34,985 nt of DNA from Clostridia bacterium. Its GTDB lineage: Bacteria; Bacillota; Clostridia; Oscillospirales; CAG-272. The position numbers and the translations under genes are program-made. The DNA lies in contig JAGBTM010000004.1 in assembly GCA_017631325.1 (NCBI GenBank), positions 1 to 34,985 on the forward strand, given 5' to 3'. The notes beneath the pieces were generated by a model. The model saw only the letters and a list, made by a program, of their open reading frames with translations, did no database searches and had not been told where the DNA came from. How positions within the stretch are numbered: position 1 is the stretch's first letter; every line of letters starts with the position of its first letter. Of the stretch, positions 16,261 to 33,564 are shown one piece after another.

Positions 16261-16276
16261 TTGTCTCTTGTTTTTT
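16235..16276. terminator. terminator behind the tRNA remnant
   Basis: AACAAGAGACAACC and GGTTGTCTCTTGTT form a 14-bp perfect stem with a short loop and T-runs at both outer ends. On the minus strand it begins immediately after the CCA of the tRNA-like 3' end. Confidence 0.8.
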
Positions 16277-16327
16277 GGTCGAAGTGGCGGGACTCGAACT
16301 CGCGGCCTCCAGTACCCGAAGCCGAAA
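16277..16327 (-). pseudogene. truncated tRNA 3' end (probable attachment-site scar)
   Basis: Read on the minus strand it ends ...GCGAG-TTCGAGT-CCCGC-CACTTCG-A-CCA: a T arm with consensus T loop and four of five stem pairs, an acceptor 3' strand, a discriminator base and an encoded CCA, followed by a terminator. The matching 5' acceptor strand (CGAAGTG), D arm and anticodon arm are not found upstream; AT-rich unrelated sequence is there instead. CGAAGTG acceptors occur in tRNA-Leu, so a Leu tRNA is the best guess. A 3' fragment like this is typical of a boundary left by a tyrosine-integrase element. Confidence 0.55.
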
Positions 16328-16814: not shown

Positions 16815-17084
16815 ATGAACGTAATAAAAGAACTGTGGCACGGAAATATCGTACCGCAAGAGAATAGCAGGACGAACACAAAGGAAATGAAGGAACTGCT
16901 CGGTTACATGGCAAGGCATCATGAAGATTTAGAAAAAACTTTCACAGAAGATCAAAAAGCGATCTTCGAAAAATTCCACGACTGCTGGAGCGAGTATATG
17001 AGTCTTGCCGAAGCAGCCATATTCGAATACGCTTTCCGCCTCGGGGCGAGGTTAATGATGGAGATAGAAACAGACGCAAAATGA
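16815..17084 (+). CDS. small DUF6809-like protein
   Basis: This 89-aa protein has the layout of the short clostridial proteins placed in DUF6809: an N-terminal ELWHGNI-P block, a central helix with a long acidic/basic pattern, and a C-terminal FEYAFRLGARLMMEI segment. Function is unknown. The frame is open further upstream, but ATG at 16815 has GGAGG at 16802-16806, so I choose that start. Members of this family often sit on mobile elements. It lies just inside the proposed island boundary and in front of the large gene cluster, but a strong promoter separates it from that cluster. Confidence 0.75.
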   Translation: MNVIKELWHGNIVPQENSRTNTKEMKELLGYMARHHEDLEKTFTEDQKAIFEKFHDCWSEYMSLAEAAIFEYAFRLGARLMMEIETDAK

Positions 17085-17193
17085 TAGAATAGGGCTGACG
17101 GAATTACAACCGATAGCCCTAAAATTTACTTTGTATAAAAAATGGCAACCGAATAATATTTTCACTAAAGTAGTATAAAATGCACAAAAAATG

Positions 17194-17222
17194 TTGACAA
17201 ACTGATGAATGTGTGGTAAAAT
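17194..17222 (+). promoter_or_regulatory. near-consensus sigma-A promoter of the eight-gene cluster
   Basis: TTGACA (17194-17199), a 17-base spacer and TAAAAT (17217-17222) with a TG extension form an almost ideal housekeeping promoter. It lies 82 bases before the first ATG. I find no comparable promoter inside the following 16 kb. Confidence 0.85.
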
Positions 17223-17264
17223 GTAAAAAAAGTAAAAATTCTTACAAATTTTAATTTCATTACA

Positions 17265-17287
17265 AAAAGCCGTGTTTCGACGGCTTT
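17265..17287 (+). promoter_or_regulatory. stem-loop in the leader of the eight-gene cluster
   Basis: AAAGCCGT (17266-17273) pairs with ACGGCTTT (17280-17287) around a six-base loop. There is no U-tract, so it is not an ordinary terminator. It lies only about seven bases before the ribosome site of the first gene and could modulate translation or RNA stability. Confidence 0.5.
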
Positions 17288-17303
17288 AGAATTTGGGGAA
17301 AAC

Positions 17304-18026
17304 ATGATTAAAGCAGTATTGAAAAGAAACAATATCCTATTAAGCGAATTTGCTGACAGTCTTAATATTTCTCGACCTACGCTCGATACTTATATTAGAA
17401 ATTATGATAGCGGAGTAAGGCTTTCAAACAATCTCTTTCAGAAGATTTTTGATTTTCTGTTCAGCGATGCACAGATGTCAAGAGAAGATTTTGAGAGAAG
17501 ATATGCCTATGTGATAGAGAACTATGGTAAAAAAACCGATATGTCCTCCTACTCTCAAAGTGCGCCACAGACATCGTCAGGCGAAACGAATGGCGCGAAC
17601 CGAGCGCAGGCTGTTTTTGACGTGCTTGGCGAGGATCTCATTTTGGAGCGCTTCACTCAAGATGAGTATAATATCTTGGCTAAACTATTGATGAAGGATA
17701 GCGGTCTCCTCCATTGCATCTTCAAGTATTTCCTTCTTTGGAAGGATAAGGTGCAATTGGCTGACCTAAACGAGCCGGAAAAAGTTATGGCTATCAACCT
17801 CTTTATGTTTGACAAGAAACTGCAAGGGAAAGATTTTACTTATTCTGAAGAAGAATATCGGGAACTTGAGGTAGCAATCGACAAGAAACTCAATCCGTCC
17901 AAATATACGACCGAGCAAGAGCAAAAAACAATTGACGAGATCAGCGGTTCGATATCAACATTGTTAGCGAACAACAGCGGATTATCAATAGATGAAATCA
18001 TCGCGCAGATCAAAAAGAAAATCTGA
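17304..18026 (+). CDS. HTH protein, first gene of the surface-signalling cluster
   Basis: This 240-aa protein has an N-terminal helix-turn-helix-like segment (LSEFADSLNISRPTLDTYIRNYD, about residues 13-36) resembling Cro/C1-type recognition helices. A polar linker (residues 78-100) joins it to a helical C-terminal part with no family I can name. The C terminus is a charged helix (SIDEIIAQIKKKI). GGGGA precedes the ATG. Being first behind the promoter, it may autoregulate the cluster. Only the HTH is recognisable; DNA binding is inference. The giant gene begins 19 bases after its stop codon. Confidence 0.7.
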   Translation: MIKAVLKRNNILLSEFADSLNISRPTLDTYIRNYDSGVRLSNNLFQKIFDFLFSDAQMSREDFERRYAYVIENYGKKTDMSSYSQSAPQTSSGETNGANRAQAVFDVLGEDLILERFTQDEYNILAKLLMKDSGLLHCIFKYFLLWKDKVQLADLNEPEKVMAINLFMFDKKLQGKDFTYSEEEYRELEVAIDKKLNPSKYTTEQEQKTIDEISGSISTLLANNSGLSIDEIIAQIKKKI

Positions 18027-18045
18027 CCGAGAAAGAGGAATGACT

Positions 18046-21000
18046 ATGAAAAGACAGTTTACAAAACTTTTTTGGGTAATTGCAACCATCTGCCTTGCCT
18101 TTGCAATGATTATAGGCGTTGGCAGTATTACTGCCTCTGCAGCGGATGGCGAATGCACGCTCTCCCTCTCGCTGATAGGTGATTCAACGATTTACCTAAA
18201 AAAAGGAACGGAATACAAAGAATTCGGAGCTACAGCCTATGATACCGTCGAGGGAGATCTGACGAAAAATATCGCAATCAACAATCCTGTTAAGAAAGAC
18301 ACGGTGGGAACGTACACGGTGTCTTATAGTGTTTCTAATGCATCCTCTCAAACAGCTACAGCAAGTAGGACAGTTATAGTTTTTGATGAAATGAAATTAG
18401 AAACATATAAAACATATAGCGCATCTTATTCAGGATCAACCTTGACTAATGTTATTCAGACCAATGACAACGGAATTGTTGCTTATGGATATCTTTGGAC
18501 TTATAATCGTAGAGAAAAAATTATAAAGTATGATAGCCGTTTTGATGTAGAATGGGAGCTTTCACTATCTGACAACCTTCTGACACGCGAAGTTTTACAA
18601 GACAAAAAAGGAAATATAATCCTTCTTTCAAGTCGCTATTTAACTGTGCTGGATGAGTTTGGCAAAGTCCTTTCCCAAAAATCATTATCTGGTGATTACT
18701 ATCATATCGCAATTATAGGTGAAAATACATATATGCTATATGACAATTATTATAGTGACAGAAGTAACCAATACACTATCGCATTTTTTGATAACGATAC
18801 AAAAAATATAACTTTTGAAAACAAAACTGCTCCTGTCAGTCTTGAAAATGCATTTGTGATGGATGGATTCGTTTATGCAATGCATCAAGATGGTGCGATA
18901 TACAAAATGGAATTAGATACAGGAGAAATAAATTCTATAAATATCGGCTATTCATTCTCAAGTTGCCACTACTGTATTGATGGAAAAAATGTGTACTGCA
19001 TAATGCTCGATGCAGTTGGAAACAAAACAATTTACAGGCTTGATGAAAATCTTAATATACAAGCCCAAAATGATATATCATCTATAACGGGAACAATTCA
19101 AGATCTCTGCGCAAATGGAAACAGCATTGTTGTTAAGAGCGGTTCTGAATTTGTTGTGTTAGATAACAATACATTCTCTTTAGTGGGTACTTTTAGTGCG
19201 CAACACGATTTTTTTGCTCAAGACCTATTGTTGGCGGATGATGGAAACATATATTTTGTTGGTAGCTACAATTCGTCCTTTGCTGGCATCGTTAAGATGT
19301 CAAACATAGTGATGTTTTGCAATAATAGTGATTATTATAGTGAATTAAATCAAACCATTGATTACAATCTAGGTATTGATATCGTAGATATCTTTGGCAA
19401 ATCGCTCGGCACATACACCTGTGATTATTCGCAAGTAGACATTACCAAGGCAGGAAACTACAAAGCATATTACACTTTTACTGCAATTGATACCGAAGGA
19501 ATCAAGACCTATTATGTAGGCAGAGATATCATTGTAGAGCCAACCACGACATTTGAGGATGGCGCGGTATATAGTGGAAGCAAAGTTGTTGATGTTGAAG
19601 GCGGCAGCGTAACAATAAATGGACAACCCTACTCCTATGGTGACATTTATAATATCCCCGGCGCGAGCAAAATGATTATTACGGGTGAAAATGGCTACAC
19701 CAAAACAATCAATTTCACCATTGAATTAATCGTTGACGGCGTTGAAAAGGATACTACTTATTACACACCTGTAATTCCTACTATTTCAGGTGGTGAAATT
19801 ACGCTTGACGGTCAGCCTTATGTGAGCGAAACACCCATTACCACAAAAGGTTACCATACCTTGGTTATTAAGGGTGCAAACAATTTCAAAGAAACAATCA
19901 ATTTCACAATTGAAACCACGATTATCGGCATCGAAGATGAAAAAACTTATTATGAAACGCTCTACCCCGATATCAATGGCGAAAATATGACACTGAATGG
20001 TGTTGAGTGGAACAACGAGCCTATTGAAAACTGTGGTAATTATACGCTTATTATAACAGGTACAAACGGCTATAGAAAAACCGTTACCTTCGTCATTGAA
20101 ACCGTCGTAACAGATTTGACTAATGGCGAAACCTACGAGGAAGAAGTAACGCCTTCCTTTACCAAGGGAACGGCAACGTTGAACGGCGAGCCTTATGTTA
20201 GTGGCACTACAATCTACACGCCCGGACTCAACACCCTTGTTATTACAGGCGAGGATGGATATTCTGTAACATATAAATTCACCATCAACTTAGGTGTTGA
20301 AAACGTAGTGCAAGGTGAAACTTATATCGGAGAGGTAACCCCCATTATTTCGGGTGGTGACATTACACTTAATAATCAAACCTATGTTAGTGGAACAAAG
20401 ATCGATGTTCCCGGTTATTACACAATCACTATTCTCGGTGCGGATGGATATAAAAAGGATATCCATTTCATTGTTAAACCTTACGAGGTCAACGTTGAAC
20501 ACGGAGCGACCTATAACCATTCCGTTGTACCTACGGTATCCGATGGTACATTAACTCTTAATGGCAACCCTTACACAAGTGGATCTGTTCTTAACAAATC
20601 GGGCGAATATACGCTTGTTATTGTGGGAGAGAACGGATATTACGAAAGTATTACATTCACTCTTGTTACGGGTGCAAACGTAGAGGATGGCATGCACTAT
20701 AACGATGCGGTCACCTTAAAATTCGTTGGAACGGCAACACTTAATGGTGTGCCTGTTCAGCCTAATACCATCATCGAAAAGGTTGGCAACTATGAGCTTG
20801 TTTTGACAGATGGAGAAAACACTTATACATACAATTTTGTTATTGAACCTGACTATTCGATTTTTGACGGAAGAATTACCTCTTGCGTGGTCGATTTGGC
20901 AAATTGCACCGTCACGCTCAACGGCGAAGCTGTAATGAATGCCACCACACTGACAGAGGTGGGCAATTACACCCTAGTCGTTGAAGGCGAAAATGGTTAT

Positions 21001-24000
21001 GCCGAAACAATCAATTTTGCTATCTGCGCAGAAACTAACGTGGAGAACGGAGGCGAATATGCAGCCGGACTCGTGTTAAATGCAATTGGCGGTATAATTA
21101 AGCTCAATGGTGAAGATTTCACGGACGGCACAGTTCTGTCCGAAGTTGGAACATATACGCTTATAATAAACGGATCAAACGGCCATGAGGAAACCATTGC
21201 CTTCGACATCGTTCCCGAAATCAATGGCATCAGCAATGCAATCGCTTACTACGGTTCTGTAACACCTTCTATCGTTGGCGGCACCTTAACCTTAAATGGT
21301 GAGGACTATGTCTCCGACACAGCAATCACCGAGGAGGGCGTATATCAGCTCGTAATTTCAGGTATCGGTGGATACACTAAAACGATTAATTTCATAGTTC
21401 TGTCCGAGAACTTTGAAATCAAAGAAAACGGCACTTATATGCAAGCCATGTCCATCACGAACAACGTGTGTGATATGGAAATCAATGGTGAAACCTATAC
21501 CGTAGGATCAGCAATCAATACCATAGGTAAAAACACGCTTACCTTTATTTACAACGGAGAAAGAACAGACATCACTTTCTACATTTTCCCTCTTATCAGC
21601 GGAGTGGAAAACGGTGCGGTGTATGAAGGATCAGCGACACCAACAATCGAGTGGAATAATCTCCTTTTGGACGGAAAGGCATATGTAAGTGGAACGCCGA
21701 TCACCGAGGTTGGACACCATACTCTCACCGTTGCAAATCTCAACGGATATAATTACGAAATCACATTTACAGTCAAAGAGGTTTGGGAAAGCATTGAAGC
21801 TGATGGCAGTTATGAATACTCCGTTGCTCCTAAAACTGATAATGGAACATTGTATCTCGATGGAAATGCCTTCACGAGCGGAACAACAATTTATGCCGTC
21901 GGACATCACACAATAAAGATTATCGGCGTAAATGGATATGAAAACGAAATAACATTTACCGTAACCGAACGAATCAGCAATCTTGAAGATGGAAAAGAAT
22001 ACACGGGTACGATTTACCCGTCCGTATCTAATGCAACGCTTTACTTGGATGGAGCATCATATTCAAGCGGCTCGTCTATCAACAAGGTAGGATATCGCAC
22101 TTTGCGAGTAGAGGGGGTAAATGGGTATGTATCGGAGTATCATTTCACCATTTTGCCGTCTATTTCAGGCGCACAGGCTAATGAGGAATATTCTCCCGGC
22201 AACACTTATGTTTCTTGCAGTAATGCTACCATTAAATTAAACGGGCAAGCATATACTTCGGGAACCGCTATTTACAATGCCGGATATTATACGGTGGAAA
22301 TTTTTGGCGCAAACGGTTATGTGTACACATACAAGTTCACCGTTGTTCCCACTATTTCAGGAGCGCAAGACGGCGGTGAATATAGTAGCTACACTTCTGT
22401 TTCGTGCAATTATGCAACACTTAAACTAAATGGCAATAGTTATTCCTCTGGAAGCACCATATACGACATTGGATACCATGAAATTGAGATTATCGGTGTT
22501 GGTGGCTATACAAAAACCATTCGCTTCACGAGAACACCCAATCCGACCATTACAGACGGAGAAGAAATAAATTATTCTAAGTCTGTAAGTATGGACTATC
22601 TTTCAAACTTTACAAATACGATTGTAAAACTTGATGGCGAAATTTTAACGAGTTCTAAAACCGTCTATGCAATTGGTTATCATACTCTCACTATTGAGGG
22701 CGCAAATGGTTACATTGATGAAAGAAATTTTACAATCAAAGCGAATTGGAGTGGAGTAGCCGATGGCGCATCGTATAACTCGACGACAGGTACTTACTTA
22801 AGATTAAGAAATAGCAGTAGTAGCAGTAGCATTCTTTCCGAAGAATACTACGAGAAGATTTTGCTTGACGGTCAACTATTCACCAACAACACGTACTGCT
22901 ACACCGTGGGCAATCACAAGTTCGAGATTTATGGCGCAAACGGATATGTGGAAACTATCGAATTTGTTATAAATCCCGTCGTTGATAAGCTCTATGATAA
23001 TTCAACCATTAGTACGAAAAATGACTCTTCGTATCCTTTCACCTTTAGTGATGGTATATACGAATCAACCAACAAGCGCGATGGATCTTCCTCCATATTC
23101 ATATTAACGGCAACCGCAGATATTGAATTCACTTTGAGATATTTCGTTTCCTCCGAGTCAGGATATGATAAGCTTGTCATCGTGAAGAACGGAACGGAAA
23201 TCGTTACTACATCGGGAAGCCCCGGATGGGCAGAACGCTCGCTCACTATGAGCGCAGGCGAGGTTATGACTATATCCTATCGCAAAGATGGCTCTGCTTC
23301 AAGAGGTGAAGATTGCGTGAGATTTGAGTTAAATATGAAATCGGAGGGGGTCGGAACAAAGCTCATCCCCGAAATCTACCTCAACAACACCAATACATTC
23401 CAAGATGAAACAACCTATGTGCTATTGGATGGTCAGCCCTACACCTTGAACTCGACCATTGATACGGTAGGATACCACACCTTGAAAATATTCGGCGTAG
23501 GTGGCTATGAGAAGGAATACAAGATCACCGTTATCCCAACTATTGCTGACATTGCCGATGATGCAACCTATGAAGGCGGCGTTACTCCCAATATCGATAA
23601 ATGCACACTTCTTCTCGATGGAGAGGCATATATCAGCGGAACGCCTATAGTTGCCGTAGGTCATCATACCATCGAGATGATTGGTGTAAACGACTATGTT
23701 TTGAGCTACAGCTTTACTATCACTCCCTCTCACGTGGAAGATTATAGCGATAAAGTGTTCTACAAAGAGGTAGCGATTAGTACAATCGAAAATGCCACTC
23801 TATATCTTGACGGTAAGCTTTACAACGGAGAAAAAATCACTTCTCTCGGCTACCACACCATTAAGATTGAGGGAACTAACGGCTATGAGCAATCCTTCGA
23901 CTTTAGCATTACCGAAAAGCCCATTCTTAAAGATGTAAACGGATACAAGGATTTTGTGGATGGATTTACTTCGGAATACATGGTCAACATAACAATTCCC

Positions 24001-27000: not shown

Positions 27001-27057
27001 GGATTGGTTGCGGCGGCATTTGTAACCATAATGATCATGCGAAAGAAGGTGCTGTAA
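18046..27057 (+). CDS. giant repeat-containing surface protein with C-terminal membrane anchor
   Basis: This is a 3003-aa exported protein. Residues 1-32 are a Sec signal peptide (basic start, hydrophobic core, cleavage near ASA-AD). Residues 36-112 resemble a DUF5011-type Ig-like domain. Residues 118-425 look like a beta-propeller (repeated strands with DGNIYFVGS-like turns), and 434-499 form a second Ig-like domain. About 37 repeats of ~62 aa run from about 500 to 2970, each with a L-D/N-G turn, SGT, VGxHT and G-x-NGY. Repeat 18 contains an inserted CUB-like domain (about 1660-1770). One membrane helix (2977-2998) and RKKVL end the protein; there is no LPxTG. I start at 18046 because AGAGG lies seven bases upstream; ATG 18040 is too close. 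No known activity is visible; an adhesin or sensor is plausible. Confidence 0.85.
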   Translation: MKRQFTKLFWVIATICLAFAMIIGVGSITASAADGECTLSLSLIGDSTIYLKKGTEYKEFGATAYDTVEGDLTKNIAINNPVKKDTVGTYTVSYSVSNASSQTATASRTVIVFDEMKLETYKTYSASYSGSTLTNVIQTNDNGIVAYGYLWTYNRREKIIKYDSRFDVEWELSLSDNLLTREVLQDKKGNIILLSSRYLTVLDEFGKVLSQKSLSGDYYHIAIIGENTYMLYDNYYSDRSNQYTIAFFDNDTKNITFENKTAPVSLENAFVMDGFVYAMHQDGAIYKMELDTGEINSINIGYSFSSCHYCIDGKNVYCIMLDAVGNKTIYRLDENLNIQAQNDISSITGTIQDLCANGNSIVVKSGSEFVVLDNNTFSLVGTFSAQHDFFAQDLLLADDGNIYFVGSYNSSFAGIVKMSNIVMFCNNSDYYSELNQTIDYNLGIDIVDIFGKSLGTYTCDYSQVDITKAGNYKAYYTFTAIDTEGIKTYYVGRDIIVEPTTTFEDGAVYSGSKVVDVEGGSVTINGQPYSYGDIYNIPGASKMIITGENGYTKTINFTIELIVDGVEKDTTYYTPVIPTISGGEITLDGQPYVSETPITTKGYHTLVIKGANNFKETINFTIETTIIGIEDEKTYYETLYPDINGENMTLNGVEWNNEPIENCGNYTLIITGTNGYRKTVTFVIETVVTDLTNGETYEEEVTPSFTKGTATLNGEPYVSGTTIYTPGLNTLVITGEDGYSVTYKFTINLGVENVVQGETYIGEVTPIISGGDITLNNQTYVSGTKIDVPGYYTITILGADGYKKDIHFIVKPYEVNVEHGATYNHSVVPTVSDGTLTLNGNPYTSGSVLNKSGEYTLVIVGENGYYESITFTLVTGANVEDGMHYNDAVTLKFVGTATLNGVPVQPNTIIEKVGNYELVLTDGENTYTYNFVIEPDYSIFDGRITSCVVDLANCTVTLNGEAVMNATTLTEVGNYTLVVEGENGYAETINFAICAETNVENGGEYAAGLVLNAIGGIIKLNGEDFTDGTVLSEVGTYTLIINGSNGHEETIAFDIVPEINGISNAIAYYGSVTPSIVGGTLTLNGEDYVSDTAITEEGVYQLVISGIGGYTKTINFIVLSENFEIKENGTYMQAMSITNNVCDMEINGETYTVGSAINTIGKNTLTFIYNGERTDITFYIFPLISGVENGAVYEGSATPTIEWNNLLLDGKAYVSGTPITEVGHHTLTVANLNGYNYEITFTVKEVWESIEADGSYEYSVAPKTDNGTLYLDGNAFTSGTTIYAVGHHTIKIIGVNGYENEITFTVTERISNLEDGKEYTGTIYPSVSNATLYLDGASYSSGSSINKVGYRTLRVEGVNGYVSEYHFTILPSISGAQANEEYSPGNTYVSCSNATIKLNGQAYTSGTAIYNAGYYTVEIFGANGYVYTYKFTVVPTISGAQDGGEYSSYTSVSCNYATLKLNGNSYSSGSTIYDIGYHEIEIIGVGGYTKTIRFTRTPNPTITDGEEINYSKSVSMDYLSNFTNTIVKLDGEILTSSKTVYAIGYHTLTIEGANGYIDERNFTIKANWSGVADGASYNSTTGTYLRLRNSSSSSSILSEEYYEKILLDGQLFTNNTYCYTVGNHKFEIYGANGYVETIEFVINPVVDKLYDNSTISTKNDSSYPFTFSDGIYESTNKRDGSSSIFILTATADIEFTLRYFVSSESGYDKLVIVKNGTEIVTTSGSPGWAERSLTMSAGEVMTISYRKDGSASRGEDCVRFELNMKSEGVGTKLIPEIYLNNTNTFQDETTYVLLDGQPYTLNSTIDTVGYHTLKIFGVGGYEKEYKITVIPTIADIADDATYEGGVTPNIDKCTLLLDGEAYISGTPIVAVGHHTIEMIGVNDYVLSYSFTITPSHVEDYSDKVFYKEVAISTIENATLYLDGKLYNGEKITSLGYHTIKIEGTNGYEQSFDFSITEKPILKDVNGYKDFVDGFTSEYMVNITIPDAELFIDGAAYTSGTDYYTVGLHYLRIVGENGYEAEYTFTLTEKIAGLIDDEEYSSIQIDCDNVVSLILNGEEIENHTIINLVGNYTLVVKGANGYTNEYNFTIGLNLKNVANGGVYDSTIAPTVNANTIYLNGEAFVSGTSVSNVGYHSMRIEGVGGYIHEIAFTIDAKVEGVTHNTIYTTGICPKIDSAQILLNGQRYTPGTVISLVGYHKLQIIGLNGYEKTISFTIKDNVQGITNGATYQANVTPTFNNGTTVTLDGTTFTSGTPILSSNIGIHKLKIVGVGGYEKEYVFTIIPTIKNIEVGGTYQGSVSPVINGGSFKLNGQSITLNNPISTVGNNKLTIYGTNGYVQEITFTIEPVIENLKGSYQQSFTPNVIGSGMTMKLNGSSYTNGTRIETVGNNKLVVSGYGGYTKTFTITVVPLITGIENNSIVHGSIQIKVSPNATLKIDGVSYTNNASYTKVGNHILKITGVNGYEQTLTFTLKESSSTISTDQYNGVFKLAFDKANFEILIDGANYTSNTNYYTIGHHELTVVGSNGYASTYAITVTPKLNGIVDKGEYNEKVIVTTNNGKIYIDGTLYNAGTAYKKVGHHTLTMTGTGGYKYSIAFTVTPKISGITAGGSYNSTASWSIPTDCTAKLDGASVNVNSSTSKIGNHTIVIEGANGYQTSISFTVTETINIVDGTVYNKAITIDIPDCSAVLNDLEISDLYELNTPGSYTLTVFGTNGYTNEYKFTVISVISGIVDGQEYDGSVTANTSIGQWYLDDKPYVSGTLITEIGHHTLKVSGPDYEQICSFTITVDVSAYAENLKKFNYTNSDLELYINGEKYSSGASFKQVGNHTVEYRGANGYISSANFTIEYTYNGNSEYKYQDIAVINIPNATLFVNGTQIENLTEITSIGNNIVTIKGANGYEKTVEIFIAPTLTIVNGEERDEKITIKKLNATMYLDGVAISGDTIVDTHGTHTLRIEGANGYVEEISFTFNNPNNTYVIMISIVLGLVAAAFVTIMIMRKKVL
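19549..26960 (+). repeat. coding region of about 37 tandem ~62-aa repeats
   Basis: The protein repeats are regular, but the DNA copies are strongly diverged, so the array is old and not recently amplified. Each unit has the order: short strand with V/I-xxG, Y, strand ending TxxxG, L-x-L-D/N-G, Y-x-S-G-T-x-I, VGxHT, L-x-I-x-GxNGY, and xFTI. Most units are 60-65 aa; units 16, 17, 18 and 21 are longer. Confidence 0.85.
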
Positions 27058-27058
27058 T

Positions 27059-28840
27059 ATGGAATTCATAGAAAAATACTTTATTATATTCGCAGCACTT
27101 CTCATCGCGGCAGGCTTTGCACTCGTTGTTCTTTATGCAAAGCGCGATTTGGTCTTACACAAAAGAAAAGCGATTTCATACGAGAATTACAAGAAATACA
27201 AAGGATACTTCACATTTGAACCAAATAAAACCCTTGTAATTCTCGGTGCATCGTACTTGGCGTTGGTGCTTATCGCATCGTTTTTGATAGTTCGCAATGA
27301 CATATTGAGAATCTATTTAATTGCATTTGGTGCAATGGAGCTTTTGGTAGGTTCGAGCTTGGCTCTCTACTACTTCAGCAAGAGCTACAATAAGAACTTA
27401 AGCGAATTTGACTCCATATACGAGAGCATCAATAATAGCTACATCAACAAACAAAGACTCCTTGATTTCATCAAAGTCTTAAAATTAAGACGAGAGGAAA
27501 TCAGGAGCGATATCAAAAAGATCAACGACAACTGCGAGAGCCTCGTTCTGAATTATAAAGGGATCGATGGCTTGACAGAAATCGATAAGCCTTTGTCGGA
27601 CATTATCGTAGCCCAAGAAAGCATTGCAAACGGCTTTGATAATACGATGACAGGCATCTTCACCAAGTCGCTCATTGAATACTTGCAAAGTGGAAAGATC
27701 AGCTCCCATACATATAACCTCTTCAACCCGATTACCAGCGTTGAACTTGAGAAAATATGCACAGGAATACAGGAAGAAAAGAAAAGAATCTTTTCCGCCT
27801 ATATTGTATCGGTATTTGAAAACGCCGAATTCAAAGGCAATCAAGCACTCATCCGCTTGGCTGATGTCTTACGTGCGAACGGTATGTTCAAGGATGCAGA
27901 ATATACGGGGATCATATTGGGATACATTTCAACCCACGAGCAGAACCGAGAAGAAGTTGTAAACTATCTCTACGATAAAAACCTTATCACCTATCAAGTA
28001 TTGCTTGATTGCGAAGAAAAGGAATTCAACTTCATGTTCGACCGTTCGGTAAACAGATACCTTACGGAAAAAGAATTGATTGAATTCATTTCAATCATTA
28101 TCAAGAAAAACAACCACAAATTGGCGAATAAATACCTTGTATTCTGCACTAAGGCTGATTGCGAGAGCATCAAGACCGCCCTCGACATTGCCGCGGCTTC
28201 TAATAAGACCTCCGAACTCTTTGAAGGATACTACCACTTATTGCAGCTTGATAGTGGATACAATGATATCTCAACTCGCTACGAGAGCATCGCACTTACA
28301 TTACGCAACTACTTTGCGAATGACAAAACATCTCTCGATAACATCAATCGCATCATTAATCAGGAAAGTTATTTGGAAAATCAGGTTAGTTTGGATGCAA
28401 TGTACAATCGAGCATTGGCAGATATGCAGCCGATCCTTGATAAATGCTTCAAGTCGTTGCTTTACTACTTCGTCTACGGCAAGGATTATGTAACCCAAGT
28501 CGTTGAAGAAAAGGTTAAGTGGCTATTTGTAGAATATAAAAAGTGTCTGAATGCAAGAGGTCTTTTGTGTCTCGCAGCTTTGCTTGATGGTCTAATGCTC
28601 ATCAGCGTAAAAGATAAGGCGAAAGCAAAAACTATTTGCGACAACATATTGTCCTACGGCAATATTTGTGCTGATTTCGATTACTATCCTTTGAGTGCAA
28701 ATAGCAAGAACAACTACGTGCTTTACGGCAAGGAGATCGTTGAGAACCTTTATACAGGCGATAATCTCCCCGTACTTCGTAACGTAATCATGCACATCGA
28801 AAGCAAGCGATTAATGTTGGATACTTTTAGAACTTTATAA
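27059..28840 (+). CDS. membrane protein with large helical cytoplasmic domain
   Basis: This 593-aa protein has three predicted membrane helices in its first 105 residues (about 7-27, 57-77 and 83-105). A charged, coiled-coil-like segment (about 110-165) follows, then a long alpha-helical, cytoplasmic region rich in paired helices, reminiscent of TPR-like solenoids, with no motif I can name. It starts one base after the stop of the giant gene, indicating coupled translation. Placement between surface protein and phospho-signalling genes suggests a membrane link between them; this is inference. No homology claim is made. Confidence 0.75.
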   Translation: MEFIEKYFIIFAALLIAAGFALVVLYAKRDLVLHKRKAISYENYKKYKGYFTFEPNKTLVILGASYLALVLIASFLIVRNDILRIYLIAFGAMELLVGSSLALYYFSKSYNKNLSEFDSIYESINNSYINKQRLLDFIKVLKLRREEIRSDIKKINDNCESLVLNYKGIDGLTEIDKPLSDIIVAQESIANGFDNTMTGIFTKSLIEYLQSGKISSHTYNLFNPITSVELEKICTGIQEEKKRIFSAYIVSVFENAEFKGNQALIRLADVLRANGMFKDAEYTGIILGYISTHEQNREEVVNYLYDKNLITYQVLLDCEEKEFNFMFDRSVNRYLTEKELIEFISIIIKKNNHKLANKYLVFCTKADCESIKTALDIAAASNKTSELFEGYYHLLQLDSGYNDISTRYESIALTLRNYFANDKTSLDNINRIINQESYLENQVSLDAMYNRALADMQPILDKCFKSLLYYFVYGKDYVTQVVEEKVKWLFVEYKKCLNARGLLCLAALLDGLMLISVKDKAKAKTICDNILSYGNICADFDYYPLSANSKNNYVLYGKEIVENLYTGDNLPVLRNVIMHIESKRLMLDTFRTL

Positions 28841-28851
28841 GGAAAATGCGT

Positions 28852-29913
28852 ATGGAAATGTCACTCGAAAATATAATTGCCAACGGTACATTGATGATAG
28901 ATGTTTCATCGCTTATGGTCGGTCAAAAGGATTTCTTTGTACTTGACCTATACGGAGCATTGAAGAAGCATCAGAAAAAGGTGTACATAAAAAAGGATGC
29001 AAGCGAACAACTGAAAAAGTATTGTGCTTTTTCGGAAAGCGAGCAAGCAGCTCGTGAAGGATTGTTCGTCATTGAGCATTATCAAAAAGAAGGATTGGTT
29101 GTCGAAATTGAATCGATTGCTGATCTGCCGACCGGTAATTTATATATCTTTTCCGAGGACAAGACCTACGCCGAAAAAGAATTAAAAGTAATAAAAAAGA
29201 TTGAGTTCAGCGGGAAAATCAAATTCATGAAAATCGAAAAAGGTTTTCCCGTTGAAATAGAGGTGGAAAAAATGTCAGAAGAAGGAAAAAAAGCAAAACT
29301 TTTAATTAGCATATCTATGGATAACAGCGCCTCTATGAAGGGCGACAAAATGGATAGATTGAAGCAGGCTGTATTCGCTTTCAATGAAAGATTGGAGAGC
29401 GAAGGTCTGCTCGACAGAATTGAATTCTCAACAACGGTCTTCAGCGGATTTAATTGCGTTGTAGCAAAACCGTTTGAGGAAACGGTAATAGCAAAAGAAA
29501 AATTCTTTGCAGGCGGCATTCCGTTTTTAGATTTGTCTATCACCAAAAGCCTTGAAAAGATCAATGATAGAACAAGTGAACTCGAAAAGAATGGAATTCC
29601 TTACTACAAGCCTTGGCTTATTGTTTTGTCAAACGGCGAGAATTTTGGAGATGTCAGCAGCTCGGTAGAAGGAATCAAGAAGATGGCAAGCGACGGAAAA
29701 CTAACCTATTTCCCATTTGCATTATCAGATCGTGAGTTCGATAGCAGCCTACTGCTTCTCCGCAAACTCAAGAAATTCATCACAATTAAAAATGCAATGT
29801 ATGACGAGCTGTTTAATTGGATCTTTACTATAGCAAAGAAAAGAGTTGAAACCCCAATTGATCAATCCTTTGGCATAGATGCAAATTCTTATGATGGATG
29901 GACGGTAAAATGA
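28852..29913 (+). CDS. VWA domain protein with degenerate MIDAS and PIN-like N-terminal region
   Basis: This 353-aa protein has two parts. Residues 1-145 look like a PIN-type alpha/beta domain (strand LMIDVSSLM, then KVYIKKD, then NLYIFSEDKTY). Residues 150-340 are a von Willebrand A domain. Its metal site is only half kept: D157-x-S159-x-S161 is present, but the Thr position is Ile223 and the later Asp is Asn261, so normal Mg-dependent binding is doubtful. I choose ATG 28852 because AAGGA is well spaced; ATG 28846 is the alternative. Its end overlaps the phosphatase start (ATGA). It is the second VWA protein of the cluster and probably a structural partner. Confidence 0.8.
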   Translation: MEMSLENIIANGTLMIDVSSLMVGQKDFFVLDLYGALKKHQKKVYIKKDASEQLKKYCAFSESEQAAREGLFVIEHYQKEGLVVEIESIADLPTGNLYIFSEDKTYAEKELKVIKKIEFSGKIKFMKIEKGFPVEIEVEKMSEEGKKAKLLISISMDNSASMKGDKMDRLKQAVFAFNERLESEGLLDRIEFSTTVFSGFNCVVAKPFEETVIAKEKFFAGGIPFLDLSITKSLEKINDRTSELEKNGIPYYKPWLIVLSNGENFGDVSSSVEGIKKMASDGKLTYFPFALSDREFDSSLLLLRKLKKFITIKNAMYDELFNWIFTIAKKRVETPIDQSFGIDANSYDGWTVK

Positions 29914-30869
29914 TTATAGAAAAATGGAAAAACGTTCAAGCCTACGAAATAGGAAAGTTGCATATATCGCGCAATATGGTTTGCCAAGATAGAACGTTTT
30001 ACAAAGAAGCAAACGGAGTGAAGATAGTTGCACTTGCCGACGGAGCAGGCTCGAAGTCCAAATCGGAAATCGGAGCTGAACTCGTTTGCGAAAAGGTATG
30101 CGAACTGTTTTCAACCAAGTTTATAGACTATCTCCTCTGCTTTGAGGACGAGAAAACAAATCAGGCGAAGCACAAAAAGAACATGGCGAGCCTCAGCAAG
30201 GAAATTATTACATACCTTGTAACTGCATTGAAAGCGAAAGCTCTCGAAATGAATATCGCCGTGGAAGAATTATCCTCCACCTTGCTGTTCTTCGCAATTA
30301 AAGACAATCACTACATTATGGGGCATATTGGAGATGGAGTGATTGCAGGCTTATACAATGAGAATAACGCTTATAGAGTAAGAGTTATATCAGAACCCGA
30401 AAACGGAGAAAGAAGCAATATAACCTTCTTCGTTCCCGACACGAATGCCGCAGAGCATCTGCATCTTCAAGCCGGAAGCATCGACAACTTGAAAGGCGTA
30501 TTGCTGACATCCGATGGTGCAGGAACAGTACTATTTAACGGAACTTCCGTGGACGATAACGTGTATAAGCTCTTTTCCAACTTCCAAAATCAGCAACACA
30601 CAGATTATGCTCAAGTAATATCGAAGTTTTTACGTGAGATCATCTCGAACTACTCAACTGATGATATGAGCTTGAACATTTTGAGATTGGAAGATGCAGA
30701 TACAGGAAAGATAACAAACAATTATGCAGAGTATTTGCTATCCGGCGTTGAATCCCCAAAGCAAATAATTCGAAAATCACAGTACTGCTATTATATTGAT
30801 CCGTCAATAGCTGCAACACAGGAATTTTCGAGCATTGATGAGGTTAAGGAGTATATGAAATGGAGATAA
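29910..30869 (+). CDS. PP2C-family Ser/Thr protein phosphatase
   Basis: This 319-aa cytoplasmic phosphatase has the PP2C (PPM) motifs in order: VCQDR (Asp27), LADGAGS (Asp44-Gly45), SSTLLFF, GHIGDG, LLTSDGAG (Asp202) and TDDMSLNIL (Asp251, Asp252). These are the metal-binding residues, and all are kept, so it should be active. A C-terminal extension of about 55 aa follows the catalytic core. The start overlaps the preceding stop as ATGA. PP2C, kinase and VWA together define the TerY-P triad. The likely substrate is the adjacent kinase or its targets. Confidence 0.88.
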   Translation: MIIEKWKNVQAYEIGKLHISRNMVCQDRTFYKEANGVKIVALADGAGSKSKSEIGAELVCEKVCELFSTKFIDYLLCFEDEKTNQAKHKKNMASLSKEIITYLVTALKAKALEMNIAVEELSSTLLFFAIKDNHYIMGHIGDGVIAGLYNENNAYRVRVISEPENGERSNITFFVPDTNAAEHLHLQAGSIDNLKGVLLTSDGAGTVLFNGTSVDDNVYKLFSNFQNQQHTDYAQVISKFLREIISNYSTDDMSLNILRLEDADTGKITNNYAEYLLSGVESPKQIIRKSQYCYYIDPSIAATQEFSSIDEVKEYMKWR

Positions 30870-32239
30870 GTGTATCAAAAAACAATTACATCTTTATTGA
30901 AGATACCGTTTTCGTATATCCTAACTTTTATTTGCTTCTGAAGAAATATATTGAAACCGTTGAAGCAAACGGACAAAAGCTCACAGTTTTTGTGGACAGC
31001 GGTATTGGAGAAAGAATAGAAAAATACAAAGCGGATCTCAAATTCAAGGAAGCATACTTGTTAGAGGGGTTAATAGACATTCTTGAACAAAAGGGCTTAC
31101 TTCAGAAAATTGAAACCAACAGTTATTTGGACTACACTCTTCTTGAGGCTGAATTCGCAAAATCAAAGAAGGATGCCAAATGCAGCATTATTACCCAAAG
31201 AGATGGCGTATATAATGTTTTCAAAGAGCTGAACAACTCATGCAAGAATCTCACCTTTTATCAGGTTACCGATTCGGGATTTGAGGAATGGCTAGATCAG
31301 GCACAGCTTACAACTCCGAAAGATGCATTCTATCTGCAGGATGACGAGTATGTCAATCGAATCGATACAACAGGAATTGACTATGTCTACTCCCCCAAGT
31401 ATGGATATTTGAAGCTCAATATTTCCTCGCAAATGAATGGTGGCGAAGGTAGCGTTTACAGAACCTACAACAACATGATGGTTAAGATCTTCAAGAAAGA
31501 AAACATAACCTATGTGAACTTTAAAAAGCTATCGGAAATGATAGAGATGAATCTGTACAACCCCTTTATTTGTTGGCCTCGTGATTTGGTCTATGTTGGT
31601 GATGTTTTTGTAGGCTATGTCATGGACGAGGTCAAGGGTGCAGAAACTTTGTTGAGCCTCCGACTACAGAGCTTTTCCGAATATACGCATCCCGAACGAT
31701 TTGAAATATGCTACAACTTCTTGAAGCATATCAAATACCTGCACGATAAAGGAATTCTTATCGGAGATTTGAAGCCCGACAATATATTGGTTAAGTCTCC
31801 GAGCGAGGTTTACTTCATAGACTGCGGATGCTATCAGATTAACGACTATGCGTGTCCCGTATGCCATCCCGAATACACCAAGCGAGTATTCAAAAAGGAC
31901 GAGCTGAAAAAGCAATTGAGAACGGTAGAAGATGAATACTATCCGATCAATAAAATGGCTTTTGAGATAATGATAATGAAAAATCATACCTACAGCCCGG
32001 ACAACATGGATATTGAGAACACAGATAAATCGCAATTCTTCTATCCTCTGGATGTAGATGGCATCGACATTAAGTCGGAAGATATGGCTTTGTGGGCAAA
32101 GTTTCTCACGGCTTCAATGAGAAAATACTTTTATTACTATTTCAAGCAAGGCAAAATTACGGACTTGTCTGAATGGGTAAAGGAATTACAACTGTTTTTA
32201 GAAAAAATCAAAAAGGAGATAAATAGCAATGGACGGTAA
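30860..32239 (+). CDS. divergent Ser/Thr protein kinase with PIN-like N-terminal domain
   Basis: This 459-aa protein has an N-terminal alpha/beta region (about 1-150) similar to that of the upstream VWA protein, then a protein kinase domain (about 185-420). The glycine loop is GGEGS (194-198), the ATP lysine is K209, the catalytic loop is GDLKPDN (Asp303, Lys305, Asn308), and the metal-binding motif is DCG (Asp321) instead of DFG. The HRD His-Arg is replaced by Ile-Gly, as in other TerY-P and YegI-like kinases. Key catalytic residues are present, so activity is likely. A CPVCH segment after DCG could bind metal. The gene overlaps its neighbours by 10 and 11 bases. Confidence 0.87.
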   Translation: MEISVSKNNYIFIEDTVFVYPNFYLLLKKYIETVEANGQKLTVFVDSGIGERIEKYKADLKFKEAYLLEGLIDILEQKGLLQKIETNSYLDYTLLEAEFAKSKKDAKCSIITQRDGVYNVFKELNNSCKNLTFYQVTDSGFEEWLDQAQLTTPKDAFYLQDDEYVNRIDTTGIDYVYSPKYGYLKLNISSQMNGGEGSVYRTYNNMMVKIFKKENITYVNFKKLSEMIEMNLYNPFICWPRDLVYVGDVFVGYVMDEVKGAETLLSLRLQSFSEYTHPERFEICYNFLKHIKYLHDKGILIGDLKPDNILVKSPSEVYFIDCGCYQINDYACPVCHPEYTKRVFKKDELKKQLRTVEDEYYPINKMAFEIMIMKNHTYSPDNMDIENTDKSQFFYPLDVDGIDIKSEDMALWAKFLTASMRKYFYYYFKQGKITDLSEWVKELQLFLEKIKKEINSNGR

Positions 32240-32912
32240 TTTCGATTTCTTTAGCAAACCTACAATGAATGGAGGCATTAAATTGCCTGTATGTCTGATT
32301 TTGGACAAGAGTGGTTCGATGTCAGAAAGAGTTAGAAGTAGCAGAGGCATGGTCGTTAAAATCGATGAGCTTAACAACAACATTCAGGAACTTTTCAGAA
32401 CAATCAGAAATGACTCCAATGCAAGATTGATGAGCGACGTTTGCCTCATTGGATGCGGCGGTGAACATCCAGAAGTTATCAACGGTTATTCGAGCGTTGA
32501 TAAGATTAACTTCGTTCCTCTGACCGCAGGAGGTAGAACTCCCCTCGGCGCGTCCGTTGAGTTGGCTCTCGACCTTCTTCAGAAGCGTAGAGAGTATTAT
32601 AGAAGCGCAGGCATTGAGCATTACAAACCTATTATGATGATTATGTCTGATGGTCAGCCTACCGAGGTAGAAAGCGTTGTTTATAACGCAGCACAGAGAT
32701 GCTCTGACATGGTTAATACCGAAGGATTGAAGGTTCTTCCTATAGGTATCGGTGATAGCGCAAGATTGGATATTTTGGATATGTTCTCCCCCAAGGTAAA
32801 AACTAAATGCATTACCAATATGGACGTGTTCGTAAAACTCTTTGAGATGTTGAGTGTAAGTATGAGCCAATCCGACAACACCGTATTCGATTGGTTAAAT
32901 GATCAGGTTTAA
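32229..32912 (+). CDS. TerY-like VWA domain protein with intact MIDAS
   Basis: This 227-aa protein is almost entirely one von Willebrand A domain of the TerY type. All MIDAS residues are present: D26-x-S28-x-S30 (LDKSGSM), Thr104 (GGRTPLG) and Asp141 (MSDGQPT). TerY proteins form triads with PP2C phosphatases and protein kinases in Ter-associated gene neighbourhoods. It overlaps the kinase gene by 11 bases and has AAAGGAG upstream. With the degenerate VWA protein it may form a pair of scaffold units. Its ligand is unknown. Confidence 0.88.
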   Translation: MDGNFDFFSKPTMNGGIKLPVCLILDKSGSMSERVRSSRGMVVKIDELNNNIQELFRTIRNDSNARLMSDVCLIGCGGEHPEVINGYSSVDKINFVPLTAGGRTPLGASVELALDLLQKRREYYRSAGIEHYKPIMMIMSDGQPTEVESVVYNAAQRCSDMVNTEGLKVLPIGIGDSARLDILDMFSPKVKTKCITNMDVFVKLFEMLSVSMSQSDNTVFDWLNDQV

Positions 32913-32928
32913 TTAGGAGGTAAAATAT

Positions 32929-33366
32929 ATGCGTTGTTCATGCTGTGGAAATGAAATAAGAGAAGATGAGAAATATTGCGATAAATGCGGTCAAAACAAT
33001 GAAGGATATGTAGAAAGAAAGCCTATTGAGAAGGTTGAGATTTATCATCAACAACCTAACAACTCTTCATATAGTCAGCCACAAACTACATACCAACAGA
33101 CTAACATTTATCAACAAACAACTTACCAGGTTACCAAGCCAGAATCGGGTGTAACGACTGCGGCTAAAGTGTTTTTGGTTATAGGAACTATTATTATGGC
33201 GCTAAGTACTTATTTAATTGGCTTGGCATGGTGTATTCCTATGACAATCCATTACTTTAATAAGATTAAGAATGGACAAGCGATTGGAACCGGATTTAAA
33301 GTATGCACTCTGCTTTTTGTAAGTTTGCTAAGCGGTATTTTGATGCTTTGTGACAAAGATCATTAA
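32929..33366 (+). CDS. zinc-ribbon membrane protein
   Basis: This 145-aa protein has an N-terminal zinc ribbon (CSCCGNEI then CDKCG: two Cys pairs), a Gln/Tyr-rich low-complexity linker (about residues 40-80), and two membrane helices (about 83-110 and 120-140) of the TM2/zinc-ribbon style. AGGAGG lies just upstream of the ATG, 16 bases after the TerY-like stop. The ribbon would face the cytoplasm. It ends the cluster and may be a membrane sensor or anchor. Function is inferred only from domain type. Confidence 0.8.
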   Translation: MRCSCCGNEIREDEKYCDKCGQNNEGYVERKPIEKVEIYHQQPNNSSYSQPQTTYQQTNIYQQTTYQVTKPESGVTTAAKVFLVIGTIIMALSTYLIGLAWCIPMTIHYFNKIKNGQAIGTGFKVCTLLFVSLLSGILMLCDKDH

Positions 33367-33381
33367 TCGCATAGTTAAATT

Positions 33382-33417
33382 AGTAGGCGGTGAAAATTTC
33401 ACCGCCTACTGTTTTTA
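33382..33417 (+). terminator. strong terminator of the eight-gene cluster
   Basis: AGTAGGCGGTGA on the left pairs with TCACCGCCTACT (33399-33410) on the right; a T-run follows (33412-33416). It lies about 16 bases after the last stop codon. Confidence 0.9.
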
Positions 33418-33544
33418 TTACTCAAGTTATCTGCAATAATATACATTTTTGAAAAGGTAAAATATAGACAGTCTTTGGCTTTTCACCATAATGCCAAAAT
33501 GCTTTTAACAACAATAAAATAAGATTTATTTACAAACTTTCAAG

Positions 33545-33564
33545 ATGTGCACGCACGTGTACAT
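33545..33564. promoter_or_regulatory. inverted repeat upstream of the lexA-like promoter
   Basis: ATGTGCACG (33545-33553) and CGTGTACAT (33556-33564) are inverted copies with one mismatch and a two-base centre. They end eight bases before the -35 box, an operator or activator position. Confidence 0.5.

Follow-up and report, generated by a model that had tools for sequence, protein, structure and literature searches.

The question raised by this locus is whether a giant surface protein and the VWA, PP2C phosphatase and kinase genes encoded beside it form one system, and what such a system would do. The window, the whole stretch of 34,985 nucleotides that was analysed, carries eight tightly packed genes on one strand between 17304 and 33366, flanked by a promoter and a terminator. 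Their order is HTH protein, 3003-aa exported repeat protein, membrane protein, VWA, PP2C, kinase, second VWA and zinc-ribbon membrane protein. The reading we favor, with a probability of roughly 0.45, is that of a horizontally moving eight-gene TerY-P variant coupled to the cell surface, in which a giant tether with a variable tip would be linked to a cytosolic kinase/phosphatase switch, likely working outside-in. The features of the cluster, with the evidence for each, are as follows (L029 is a second copy, described below).

17194..17222, + strand: promoter TTGACA-N17-TAAAAT with an extended -10 (TG before the -10); promoter-like site search
17223..17258, + strand: conserved operator-like stretch, imperfect palindrome GTAAAAATTCTTAC directly 3' of the -10; alignment with L029
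17304..18026, + strand: HTH protein, 240 aa, probable autoregulator; ORF, weak HTH_3 match
18046..27057, + strand: giant exported surface protein, 3003 aa; ORF, Pfam, hydropathy, repeat positions
18397..19311, + strand: variable tip domain (residues 136-440 of the 3021-aa ORF), weakly beta-propeller-like; alignment with L029, Pfam
22972..23412, + strand: inserted non-repeat domain between repeats 18 and 19 (residues 1661-1807); repeat positions
27059..28840, + strand: membrane protein, 593 aa; ORF, hydropathy scan
28846..29913, + strand: PIN-VWA fusion (VWA1), 355 aa, degenerate MIDAS; profile and motif comparison
29898..30869, + strand: PP2C phosphatase, 323 aa, metal-binding aspartates conserved; Pfam, motifs
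30860..32239, + strand: Ser/Thr kinase, 459 aa, catalytic motifs intact; Pfam, motifs
32229..32912, + strand: TerY-type VWA (VWA2), 227 aa, intact MIDAS; Pfam, alignment, motifs
32929..33366, + strand: zinc-ribbon protein, two TM segments, 145 aa; Pfam, hydropathy
33381..33411, + strand: terminator-like hairpin, 14-pair stem and T run; terminator-like site search

The ORFs of the window bore out the eight same-strand genes of the first-pass annotation, and gaps and overlaps measured at all seven joints confirmed that the genes overlap or nearly touch. The HTH gene stops at 18026 and the giant likely starts at ATG 18046, with AGAGG directly upstream; a 3021-aa ORF version uses an earlier ATG and only thereby overlaps the HTH gene. 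The giant stops at 27057, a single base separating it from the membrane-protein ATG at 27059, and the membrane protein-VWA1 joint lies at 28840 / 28846. Overlaps of 16 bases (29898-29913), 10 bases (30860-30869) and 11 bases (32229-32239) join VWA1 to PP2C, PP2C to kinase and kinase to VWA2, and a 16-base gap follows before the zinc-ribbon gene. A promoter and a terminator are present at the cluster ends, as claimed. L029 has TTGACA-N17-TATAAT at the corresponding place, and the stem at 33381-33411 was the longest among 21 terminator-like sites (shuffles 13.3, sd 4.0). Promoter-like sites over the region numbered 64, near the shuffles (53.7, sd 7.8), and among the sites listed the best on the plus strand inside the cluster scored 10/12. 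On these signals a single transcript of the eight genes is plausible. No RNA element was matched by Rfam up to E 0.1 in 15000-34985.

A comparison of neighborhoods, proposed as a check with the first-pass annotation, repeated the gene order in two other genomes. Another Clostridia MAG (L029) carries all eight genes with the order kept, and a distant Clostridiales MAG (L008), whose contig starts inside the giant, carries the last seven in order; among the proteins aligned, identity to L008 was lowest in the membrane protein (24%) and highest in VWA2 (48%). DNA similarity between the window and L029 starts at the -10 box (17221) and stops with gene 8 (33364), with none in the flanks outside 17221-33364. 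Within the cluster the similarity is interrupted at the tip and where L029 lacks repeats or inserts. Since the limits of similarity are the operon's own ends, the comparison shows the eight genes to travel together, apparently as a horizontally moving unit, and upholds the earlier view that they form one unit. Chance neighbors were ruled out, as two further loci repeat the gene order and the similarity stops where the cluster does. All eight genes gave pN/pS values of 0.08-0.27, with synonymous sites saturated.

The cluster type is rare. Its clade is known from only three loci, all on draft contigs, and no description of such a cluster was found in the literature searched. The giant's tail was present in 1 of 246 family genomes, which is the source genome itself; the genome samples overlap and are not independent, as the source genome is in every sample drawn around it and many others are repeated. 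The species-wide scan used exact short PP2C peptides, by which divergent members may be missed.

The GC content of the L029 copy (0.468) is near that of its surroundings (0.474 and 0.501), so that composition gives no foreign signature there. Upstream of the cluster in the window, one feature was judged by eye:

16276..16307, strand given as -: fragment resembling a tRNA 3' end, possibly a scar from the left attachment site of an integrated element

GC shifts here from 0.464 to 0.383, and the fragment is single-copy in the genome (up to 3 mismatches). ARAGORN found no tRNA in the window, and Rfam gave no match for the fragment. LexA orthologues occurred in 13 of 40 genus genomes, source genome included. 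In the three best other LexA genomes no empty site was readable, two contigs ending within ~0.8 kb upstream of LexA and one having unrelated small ORFs. We also rejected a phage-borne cluster, since viral-contig scans with the kinase, VWA2 and PP2C alignments, by exact short patterns that are not very sensitive, gave 344, 201 and 79 pattern matches and zero relatives. Phage records held one weak match each for kinase and PP2C. Both VWAs match phrog_28389 (function unknown; 5e-13 and 2e-13), and there are weak PHROGs matches for kinase and PP2C; relatives of the triad thus do occur in phages, and the rejection is not clean.

The TerY-P triad reportedly goes back to Anantharaman et al. 2012, and TerY-P as a stand-alone phage defence is said to come from Gao et al. 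2020. Passages of the published accounts describe the triad (PMC11090510) and its protection against phage as a stand-alone defence system (PMC11090510, PMC10889362). Neighborhoods and alignments established homology of the VWA, PP2C and kinase to TerY-P triads, the type to which they had been assigned from the outset. The absence of Ter genes also stood among window ORFs scanned with Pfam (small ORFs not covered), and the same scans showed no restriction or defence genes there. In trees of kinase, PP2C, VWA1 and VWA2 the sequences from the three loci fall together (FastTree support 0.98-1.00), and on these trees the cluster is a separate clade among TerY-P triads; the kinase profile was built with the three members, which raises their scores. 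The first-pass annotation had named, as evidence against the link, giant and triad being mostly apart elsewhere. This holds for TerY-P generally, all 12 ordinary full triads opened being without giant and without membrane protein, but fails for this clade, where the two stand together in 3 of 3 loci. Neighborhoods set aside were those of L003-L006 (four same-genus distant kinase matches), 7 of 10 plasmid kinase matches, the phage matches and the plasmid PP2C matches other than those in L023-L025 (27 records). ORF picking for the opened triads dropped overlapping ORFs (e.g. the L025 VWA and PP2C), and small or overlapping genes may be missed there.

The adjoining TerY-type VWA, PP2C and Ser/Thr kinase all have homologues in the 12 ordinary triads, but the order here is PIN-VWA / PP2C / kinase / VWA, whereas many ordinary triads run kinase / VWA / PP2C. 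The cluster further differs in a kinase without a fused zinc ribbon, a second VWA, and the extra HTH protein, giant and two membrane proteins. A kinase-fused zinc ribbon is not universal in TerY-P, as a zinc-binding match was found in 3 of 4 ordinary kinases scanned and none in L040. With stand-alone TerY-P defence the cluster has in common three enzyme/adaptor families, patchy distribution and a mobile setting. PADLOC, run on the eight cluster proteins, met its TerY model with VWA2 only (0.006). It also matched the kinase to kinases of other defence systems (MkoA 9e-11, mad6 3e-8, PD-T4-6 5e-7), perhaps only because kinases resemble one another in general. The CoCoNuT type III-A extension likewise has two TerY-like VWAs (one with MIDAS intact, one without the middle Thr) enclosing other operon genes, but here the VWAs enclose PP2C and kinase, with a giant surface protein as the added partner. 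Neither Pfam nor PADLOC matched the CoCoNuT core (McrBC-type GTPase, helicase, HEPN nuclease) in the cluster, and with core genes unmatched a CoCoNuT or Ter locus was ruled out. Kinase-PP2C-vWA sets also occur linked to GTPases, some of them membrane-linked; in contrast, no GTPase system was matched here, and the membrane link consists of separate proteins and a surface filament.

The enzymes of the triad look active from their motifs. PP2C matched PP2C_2 (Pfam, 2.2e-37) and keeps CQDR, ADGAG, IGDG, SDGA and DD, and the kinase matched Pkinase (2.1e-8) and keeps GGEGSVY, K209, GDLKPDN and DCG. The kinase ends at 459 aa with no C-terminal zinc ribbon by Pfam. VWA2 matched VWA (1e-5) and aligns along its length with ordinary-triad VWAs. 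In the window VWA1 drew no Pfam match; the L008 orthologue matches VWA below cut-off (9e-4), and VWA1 aligns with other TerY VWAs, in agreement with a VWA identity. The N-terminus of VWA1 matched the PINs of TerY-P kinases over 79 columns (95.9%, E 5.6e-9). L008 VWA1 has no PIN part, so a PIN nuclease is not essential and was ruled out as the essential effector. A PIN at the kinase N-terminus was rejected at 2% profile probability (E 0.021), and at 0.7% (E 0.078) against the VWA1 PIN. By tblastn, however, kinase sequence from residue 22 onward could be aligned with a Fusobacterium PIN-kinase.

The giant has a signal peptide, an Ig-like domain, the tip, a further Ig-like domain, 37 repeats of ~63 aa interrupted by one insert of ~120 residues, a C-terminal TM and an RKKVL tail; the signal peptide and TM, read from sequence, agree with the exported 3003-aa protein first described. 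The first Ig domain matched Bact_surface_Ig (1e-16). Repeat number ranges from 33 to 37 across copies, and the stretch between repeats 18 and 19 is 147 residues here and 26 in L029, in agreement with a DNA similarity gap at 22983-23373. In the one pair compared, identity to L029 was 33% in the tip vs 70-75% in the Ig-like domains and repeats. The best Pfam matches of the tip in both copies were PTHB1_N (7e-4) and WD40_like (4e-4), all below cut-offs, which we take to be propeller-type families; against PDB no match was better than 0.28. Through its first Ig domain and repeat stalk the giant resembles bacterial Ig-like repeat surface proteins (Bact_surface_Ig-like; BiPBP_C-like repeats), but differs from them in its C-terminal TM anchor without a sortase motif, its variable tip and its fixed linkage to the triad. 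No LPxTG-type motif was found in the giant C-termini of the three loci, which end in a TM and then RKKVL / RRRVL. Related repeats also occur in a stand-alone protein of 1170 aa from a Priestia record.

The HTH gene is present as annotated and its product is 75% identical in L029; its assignment is weaker, HTH_3 matching at 0.10 in the window and 0.0054 in L029, both below cut-off. Homology to the HTH beside two ordinary triads was rejected (14 columns, 17% probability). The palindrome at 17223-17258 is a putative site for autorepression by this protein. By a simple hydropathy scan, used for all TM calls, the membrane protein has three N-terminal TM segments here and in L008 and two in L029, and we infer that the long domain following them is cytosolic. 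No family was found for it in Pfam, NCBIfam, PADLOC or plasmid records; weak matches were to PDB (best 0.097, some coiled-coil) and to one unknown PHROGs family (0.0018). The zinc ribbon of the last protein matched below cut-off (2e-4).

In the favored reading, the repeat stalk would carry the tip out through the wall, and the membrane protein would be the giant's membrane partner, its cytosolic domain offered to kinase and phosphatase. Assembly of membrane protein, kinase and phosphatase into a complex would fall to the two VWA proteins, and the zinc-ribbon membrane protein would bring to the membrane what in many ordinary TerY-P systems is a zinc ribbon fused to the kinase. Once the tip bound a surface ligand (phage, neighbor cell or host glycan), the phosphorylation state inside would shift, and the HTH protein would repress the operon via the palindrome after the promoter. 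Such a system would be a contact-triggered relative of TerY-P defence.

The same parts could work in the opposite direction, the switch controlling export, retention or extension of a giant adhesin through the membrane protein, so that the cell chooses when to stick. The shared operon layout with its near-touching giant and membrane-protein genes, a variable tip that suits an adhesin, and a kinase and phosphatase that both look active are consistent with this, but the giant carries its own C-terminal TM, and the cluster holds no recognised gene for a sortase, a protease, an ATPase or secretion. A cluster made for display or release should have such genes, and their absence counts for a sensor, which makes the sensor role more likely and inside-out control doubtful. 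Pfam gave nothing above cut-off for three of the eight proteins (HTH, membrane protein, VWA1), which could therefore conceal an export or effector function. Against the sensor, the cluster has no clear effector, and the giant's single span and five-residue tail are ill suited to conduct a signal if the membrane protein does not read the giant.

That giant and membrane protein serve an independent surface function, sharing a mobile unit with ordinary TerY-P defence on internal phage signals, would explain why both are absent from the 12 ordinary full triads opened, and would fit passages on stand-alone defence (PMC11090510, PMC10889362). We consider it unlikely given the strict union in three loci at identities down to 24%, the constraint that all genes appear to be under, and a triad that itself departs from the ordinary form, with VWA1 carrying a PIN, the zinc ribbon borne by a separate membrane protein, a second VWA and a different gene order. 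Least probable is a surface barrier, in which a giant coat blocks phage adsorption and the TerY-P part turns on the coat or a back-up response. The great length of the protein, the mobile setting and the tie of TerY-P to defence in the same passages (PMC11090510, PMC10889362) speak for it, but a barrier has no need of a fast-changing domain between two conserved Ig-like domains.

The analysis went beyond the first-pass annotation in showing that VWA1 contains a PIN and has a broken metal site, that the zinc ribbon is separate from the kinase, that the giant's tip is variable and that the cluster is mobile. We know of no established account of what TerY-P triads sense. This clade ties the TerY-P switch to a single surface protein and a single membrane protein, both dedicated, and because the eight-gene set is fixed, input and output can be sought there. 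Tentatively, and with less confidence than the reading as a whole, we suggest a transmembrane TerY-P: the first case of the switch reading external binding via a giant membrane-anchored fibre with an exchangeable tip, contact recognition built from a phage-defence module and passed as one cassette between hosts. If the link is true, TerY-P would be extended from the cytosol to the cell surface, and a changing tip on an otherwise constant system would be a natural experiment for finding the recognised target. The cluster may let the cell couple contact outside to a switch inside.

The window is a complete contig (C6) of 34,985 bases, from a genome of 1.93 Mb in 61 contigs. ORF reading and the scan of its flanks placed these features:

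17304-33366, forward strand, eight-gene cluster
17194-17222, extended -10 promoter, immediately upstream of the eight genes
33381-33411, 14-pair hairpin and T run, immediately downstream of the eight genes
22972-23412, non-repeat insert between repeats 18 and 19 of the giant exported protein (residues 1661-1807)
16276-16307, fragment resembling a tRNA 3' end (by eye), left of the cluster

The tight packing, promoter and terminator that the first-pass annotation had described were all found in the window sequence, the terminator as the hairpin and its T run. The genes for the giant and the membrane protein are separated by 1 base; of the five joints that follow, three are overlaps of 10-16 bases. 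The observation and the eight-gene unit are both real, and the region from promoter to terminator may form a single transcript. The first gene product is a predicted HTH protein with a weak HTH_3 match in Pfam (E 0.10, and 0.0054 for its counterpart in L029, a related locus). The sequence GTAAAAATTCTTAC is kept in the window and L029 within a conserved stretch directly 3' of the -10 box, and this stretch would be a natural operator candidate for the HTH protein.

A species-genome collection was scanned with short PP2C peptides; 28 stretches matched, two of which encode a relative. Locus L029 (extended from L007; Clostridia MAG, isolate Lapin-015, a name presumably meaning "rabbit") carries all eight genes in the same order, and L008 (Clostridiales MAG, isolate Gx485) carries the last 279 residues of the giant followed by the other six genes, likewise in order, its zinc-ribbon protein being assigned by position and architecture alone. 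The expectation that the same gene order would recur in other hosts was therefore borne out. L029 has the identical spacing (1 base, then overlaps of 16, 10 and 11 bases), and the L008 genes are also closely packed. Protein identity between window and L029 is 63–91% (zinc-ribbon protein 63%, giant 67%, VWA2 91%), with saturated synonymous sites and pN/pS of 0.08–0.27 across every gene. Identity to L008 is 24% for the membrane protein, 37% for the giant tail, 38% for VWA1 and the kinase, 40% for PP2C and 48% for VWA2. Trees group the three loci (kinase 1.00, PP2C 0.98, VWA2 1.00, VWA1 1.00). Two further features belong to L029:

209-283, tRNA-Glu, about 1.9 kb from the start of the L029 cluster
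17280-17690, second zinc-ribbon gene with TM segments, after the eighth gene and absent from the window

The giant begins with a signal peptide and a Bact_surface_Ig domain (Pfam E 1e-16), followed by a tip of 305 residues, a second Ig-like stretch (by eye) and repeats of about 63 residues, 37 in the window and 33 in L029. It ends in one TM segment and RKKVL, a C-terminus alike in the giants of all three loci; no sortase motif was found in it. The window repeats share a mean identity of 36% with each other, and 33 of the 37 have a same-order partner in L029 (60–88% identity). As repeats 15, 25, 33 and 34 have none and the rest are collinear, the array changes by whole repeats. Repeats 18 and 19 are separated by 147 residues in the window vs. 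26 in L029, through an inserted domain that adds about 120 residues to the array and that L029 lacks. An exported protein of 1170 aa in Priestia has related repeats (25% identity and E 8e-6 in tblastn; 7e-44 with the repeat profile). It stands alone, as the triad gave no match within 15 kb of it; repeats of this type are thus not bound to the triad.

The tips of window and L029 (residues 136-440) are 33% identical over 289 aligned residues, while the Ig-like domains flanking them are each 75% identical, the repeat blocks 70–74%, the signal-peptide part 51% and the C-terminal TM part 68%. The best Pfam matches of the two tips were two different families, both below cut-off, which we take to be beta-propellers. 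A ligand-binding tip would be expected to change quickly and to sit at the outer end of a long stalk, as this domain does in the one pair compared.

In the membrane protein, three N-terminal TM segments were called in the window and L008 and two in L029; all three proteins have an extra hydrophobic stretch around residue 500. By the positive-inside rule we read its long remainder as cytosolic; family and profile searches found no known family for it. Gene 8 encodes a zinc-ribbon protein with two TM segments. The gene linkage, catalytic motifs and anchors of the cluster can all be read from its sequence.

The N-terminal 85 residues of VWA1 matched the PIN domains of ordinary TerY-P kinases (79 columns, 95.9%, E 5.6e-9) with a profile of six PIN domains, for which the control against VWA domains gave E 0.17. 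The PIN acidic positions D19, E54 and D105 are apparently kept (by eye), and the VWA1 of L008 is without the PIN part. The MIDAS of VWA1 is broken, keeping DNSAS and having GGIPF instead of GRTP and SNG instead of SDG; that of VWA2 is intact, and PP2C and kinase have their usual catalytic motifs. A PIN domain at the N-terminus of the kinase itself was not clear (profile 2%, E 0.021), and in tblastn the kinase aligned from residue 22 with a Fusobacterium PIN-kinase. TerY-P kinases carry a zinc ribbon (PMC11090510), and the cluster kinase ends without one; three of four ordinary kinases scanned gave a zinc-binding match, L040 being without. On plasmid records, the annotation places distant PP2C relatives next to VWA genes (pphC/yegL in E. 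coli, for example), which suggests a wider circle of such pairs.

Kinase searches, run on overlapping genome samples, at E<=1e-15 found 3/246 genomes of the family, 4/394 of the order and 6/398 of the phylum, the window genome included in each. At E<=1e-3, 6/60 genus genomes matched, the window genome and five with distant kinases, and at E<=1e-20 the families of L008 (1/6) and L029 (1/207) each gave their own carrier. The three members scored 815–907 bits and non-members at most 163 with the kinase profile, which was built from these members. The membrane protein (E<=1e-5) was found in 1/391 class genomes and the giant tail in 1/246 family genomes, in both cases the window genome, the tail within the same ORF only. 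We opened 14 related-kinase loci (L016–L021, L023–L025, L036–L040). Twelve hold the full triad (L017–L020, L023–L025 with the VWA and PP2C of L025 taken from annotation, and L036–L040); no PP2C was seen in L021, and L016 has the kinase only. None of the 14, among which L037 and L039 are short contigs, matched the membrane-protein profile (E 1e-3) or the last 600 residues of the giant (E 0.01); the giant is thus not a general companion of TerY-P triads. The proposed joining of giant and triad consequently holds within the clade (3/3 loci) and does not extend to TerY-P triads at large.

Several opened loci have features of their own. L021 (G038:C76, 6302-9745), from the same genus, has in a row a possible TIR-like protein (by eye), a related kinase and a TerY-type VWA, possibly a variant with a TIR effector. 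L017 (G071:C115, 3363-13993) combines two VWA genes with two PP2C-like and four kinase genes in one array; upstream of it, a large ORF runs off the contig start. L036 (G1319:C6, 8801-15936) is a TerY-P locus with two PIN-kinase ORFs, two VWA genes and one PP2C. In L018 (G498:C55) only a few genes separate the triad from a protein that looks Hsp70-like by eye (8304-11060), and further genes nearby may be part of a larger conflict system.

Similarity between window and L029 in blastn begins at 17221, in the -10 box, and stops at 33364, inside the stop codon of gene 8. It is interrupted at the tip (18419-19375) and by four further gaps in the repeat region, consistent with the repeats or the insert that L029 lacks. 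The window flanks (13301-17220, and 33367 to the end) had no match to L029 or L008 at E 0.01; at the sequence level, a shared unit stands in two contexts. In L029, a partial second tRNA copy (by eye) precedes the tRNA-Glu, a serine recombinase ORF (resolvase match beginning at profile position 56) lies between tRNA-Glu and cluster, and a Rep-type protein follows; positions 1-1681 are a likely integration site. In the window, ordinary metabolic and RNA genes lie left of the tRNA-like fragment, at which GC drops from 0.464 to 0.38–0.40 over the remainder of the contig, and a DUF6809 gene separates fragment and cluster. The fragment, the fall in GC and the tRNA and recombinase setting of L029 make it likely that the cluster lies in an integrated element, whose right end falls outside the window. 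Against integration, however, the L029 copy has a GC of 0.468, like its surroundings (0.474 and 0.501). Two near-identical 150-base copies (15151-15300 and 16109-16259) lie left of the fragment. Beyond the cluster, a LexA-type repressor gene (33547-34254) has a GTG start that looks too early; the ORFs of two of three relatives start at MRSKN, located at 33640 in the window, and a perfect 12/12 extended promoter lies at 33572-33600.

TerY-P unites VWA, PP2C and a kinase with a zinc ribbon and is linked to restriction systems and tellurite resistance, with an OB-fold version acting as stand-alone phage defence (PMC11090510). It guards Pseudomonas aeruginosa PAO1 from phage, most cells surviving (PMC10889362). 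CoCoNuT type III-A has a duplicated TerY VWA, with the middle MIDAS Thr missing from one copy (PMC11090510), the same pattern as in the VWA pair of the cluster. GAP1-N2 systems can have kinase/PP2C/vWA sets nearby, some of the kinases bearing TM helices (PMC7159879), and a TerY-P cluster in Helicobacter accompanies type VII secretion parts (PMC4978471). The first-pass annotation knew of no precedent for a triad joined to a giant surface protein, and the available text of the open-licence literature searched likewise contained no description of a surface-linked TerY-P form. Its naming of the genes as a TerY-P triad stands by homology, as a variant; in the strict sense it does not, because there is no kinase–zinc-ribbon fusion and no Ter or defence neighbourhood was seen in the window.

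We suggest that the giant would keep its tip outside the wall, with the membrane protein, encoded one base after it, lying next to it in the membrane. The targets of the kinase/PP2C pair would be the membrane protein or the VWA adaptors, and the zinc ribbon, being separate, would join the PIN-VWA protein in holding the switch at the membrane; these contacts, like the substrates, the ligand and the direction of signalling, we infer. Signalling could instead run inside-out, the cluster serving to control display of the giant. We favour this less than sensing, since the cluster showed no recognisable gene for a sortase, protease, secretion ATPase or toxin. The proposed surface coupling of the triad is well supported as to linkage; its contacts and function are predicted. 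The cluster is a TerY-P triad variant that has been rebuilt and is both rare and mobile, and of the two directions we prefer outside-in sensing, with moderate confidence.
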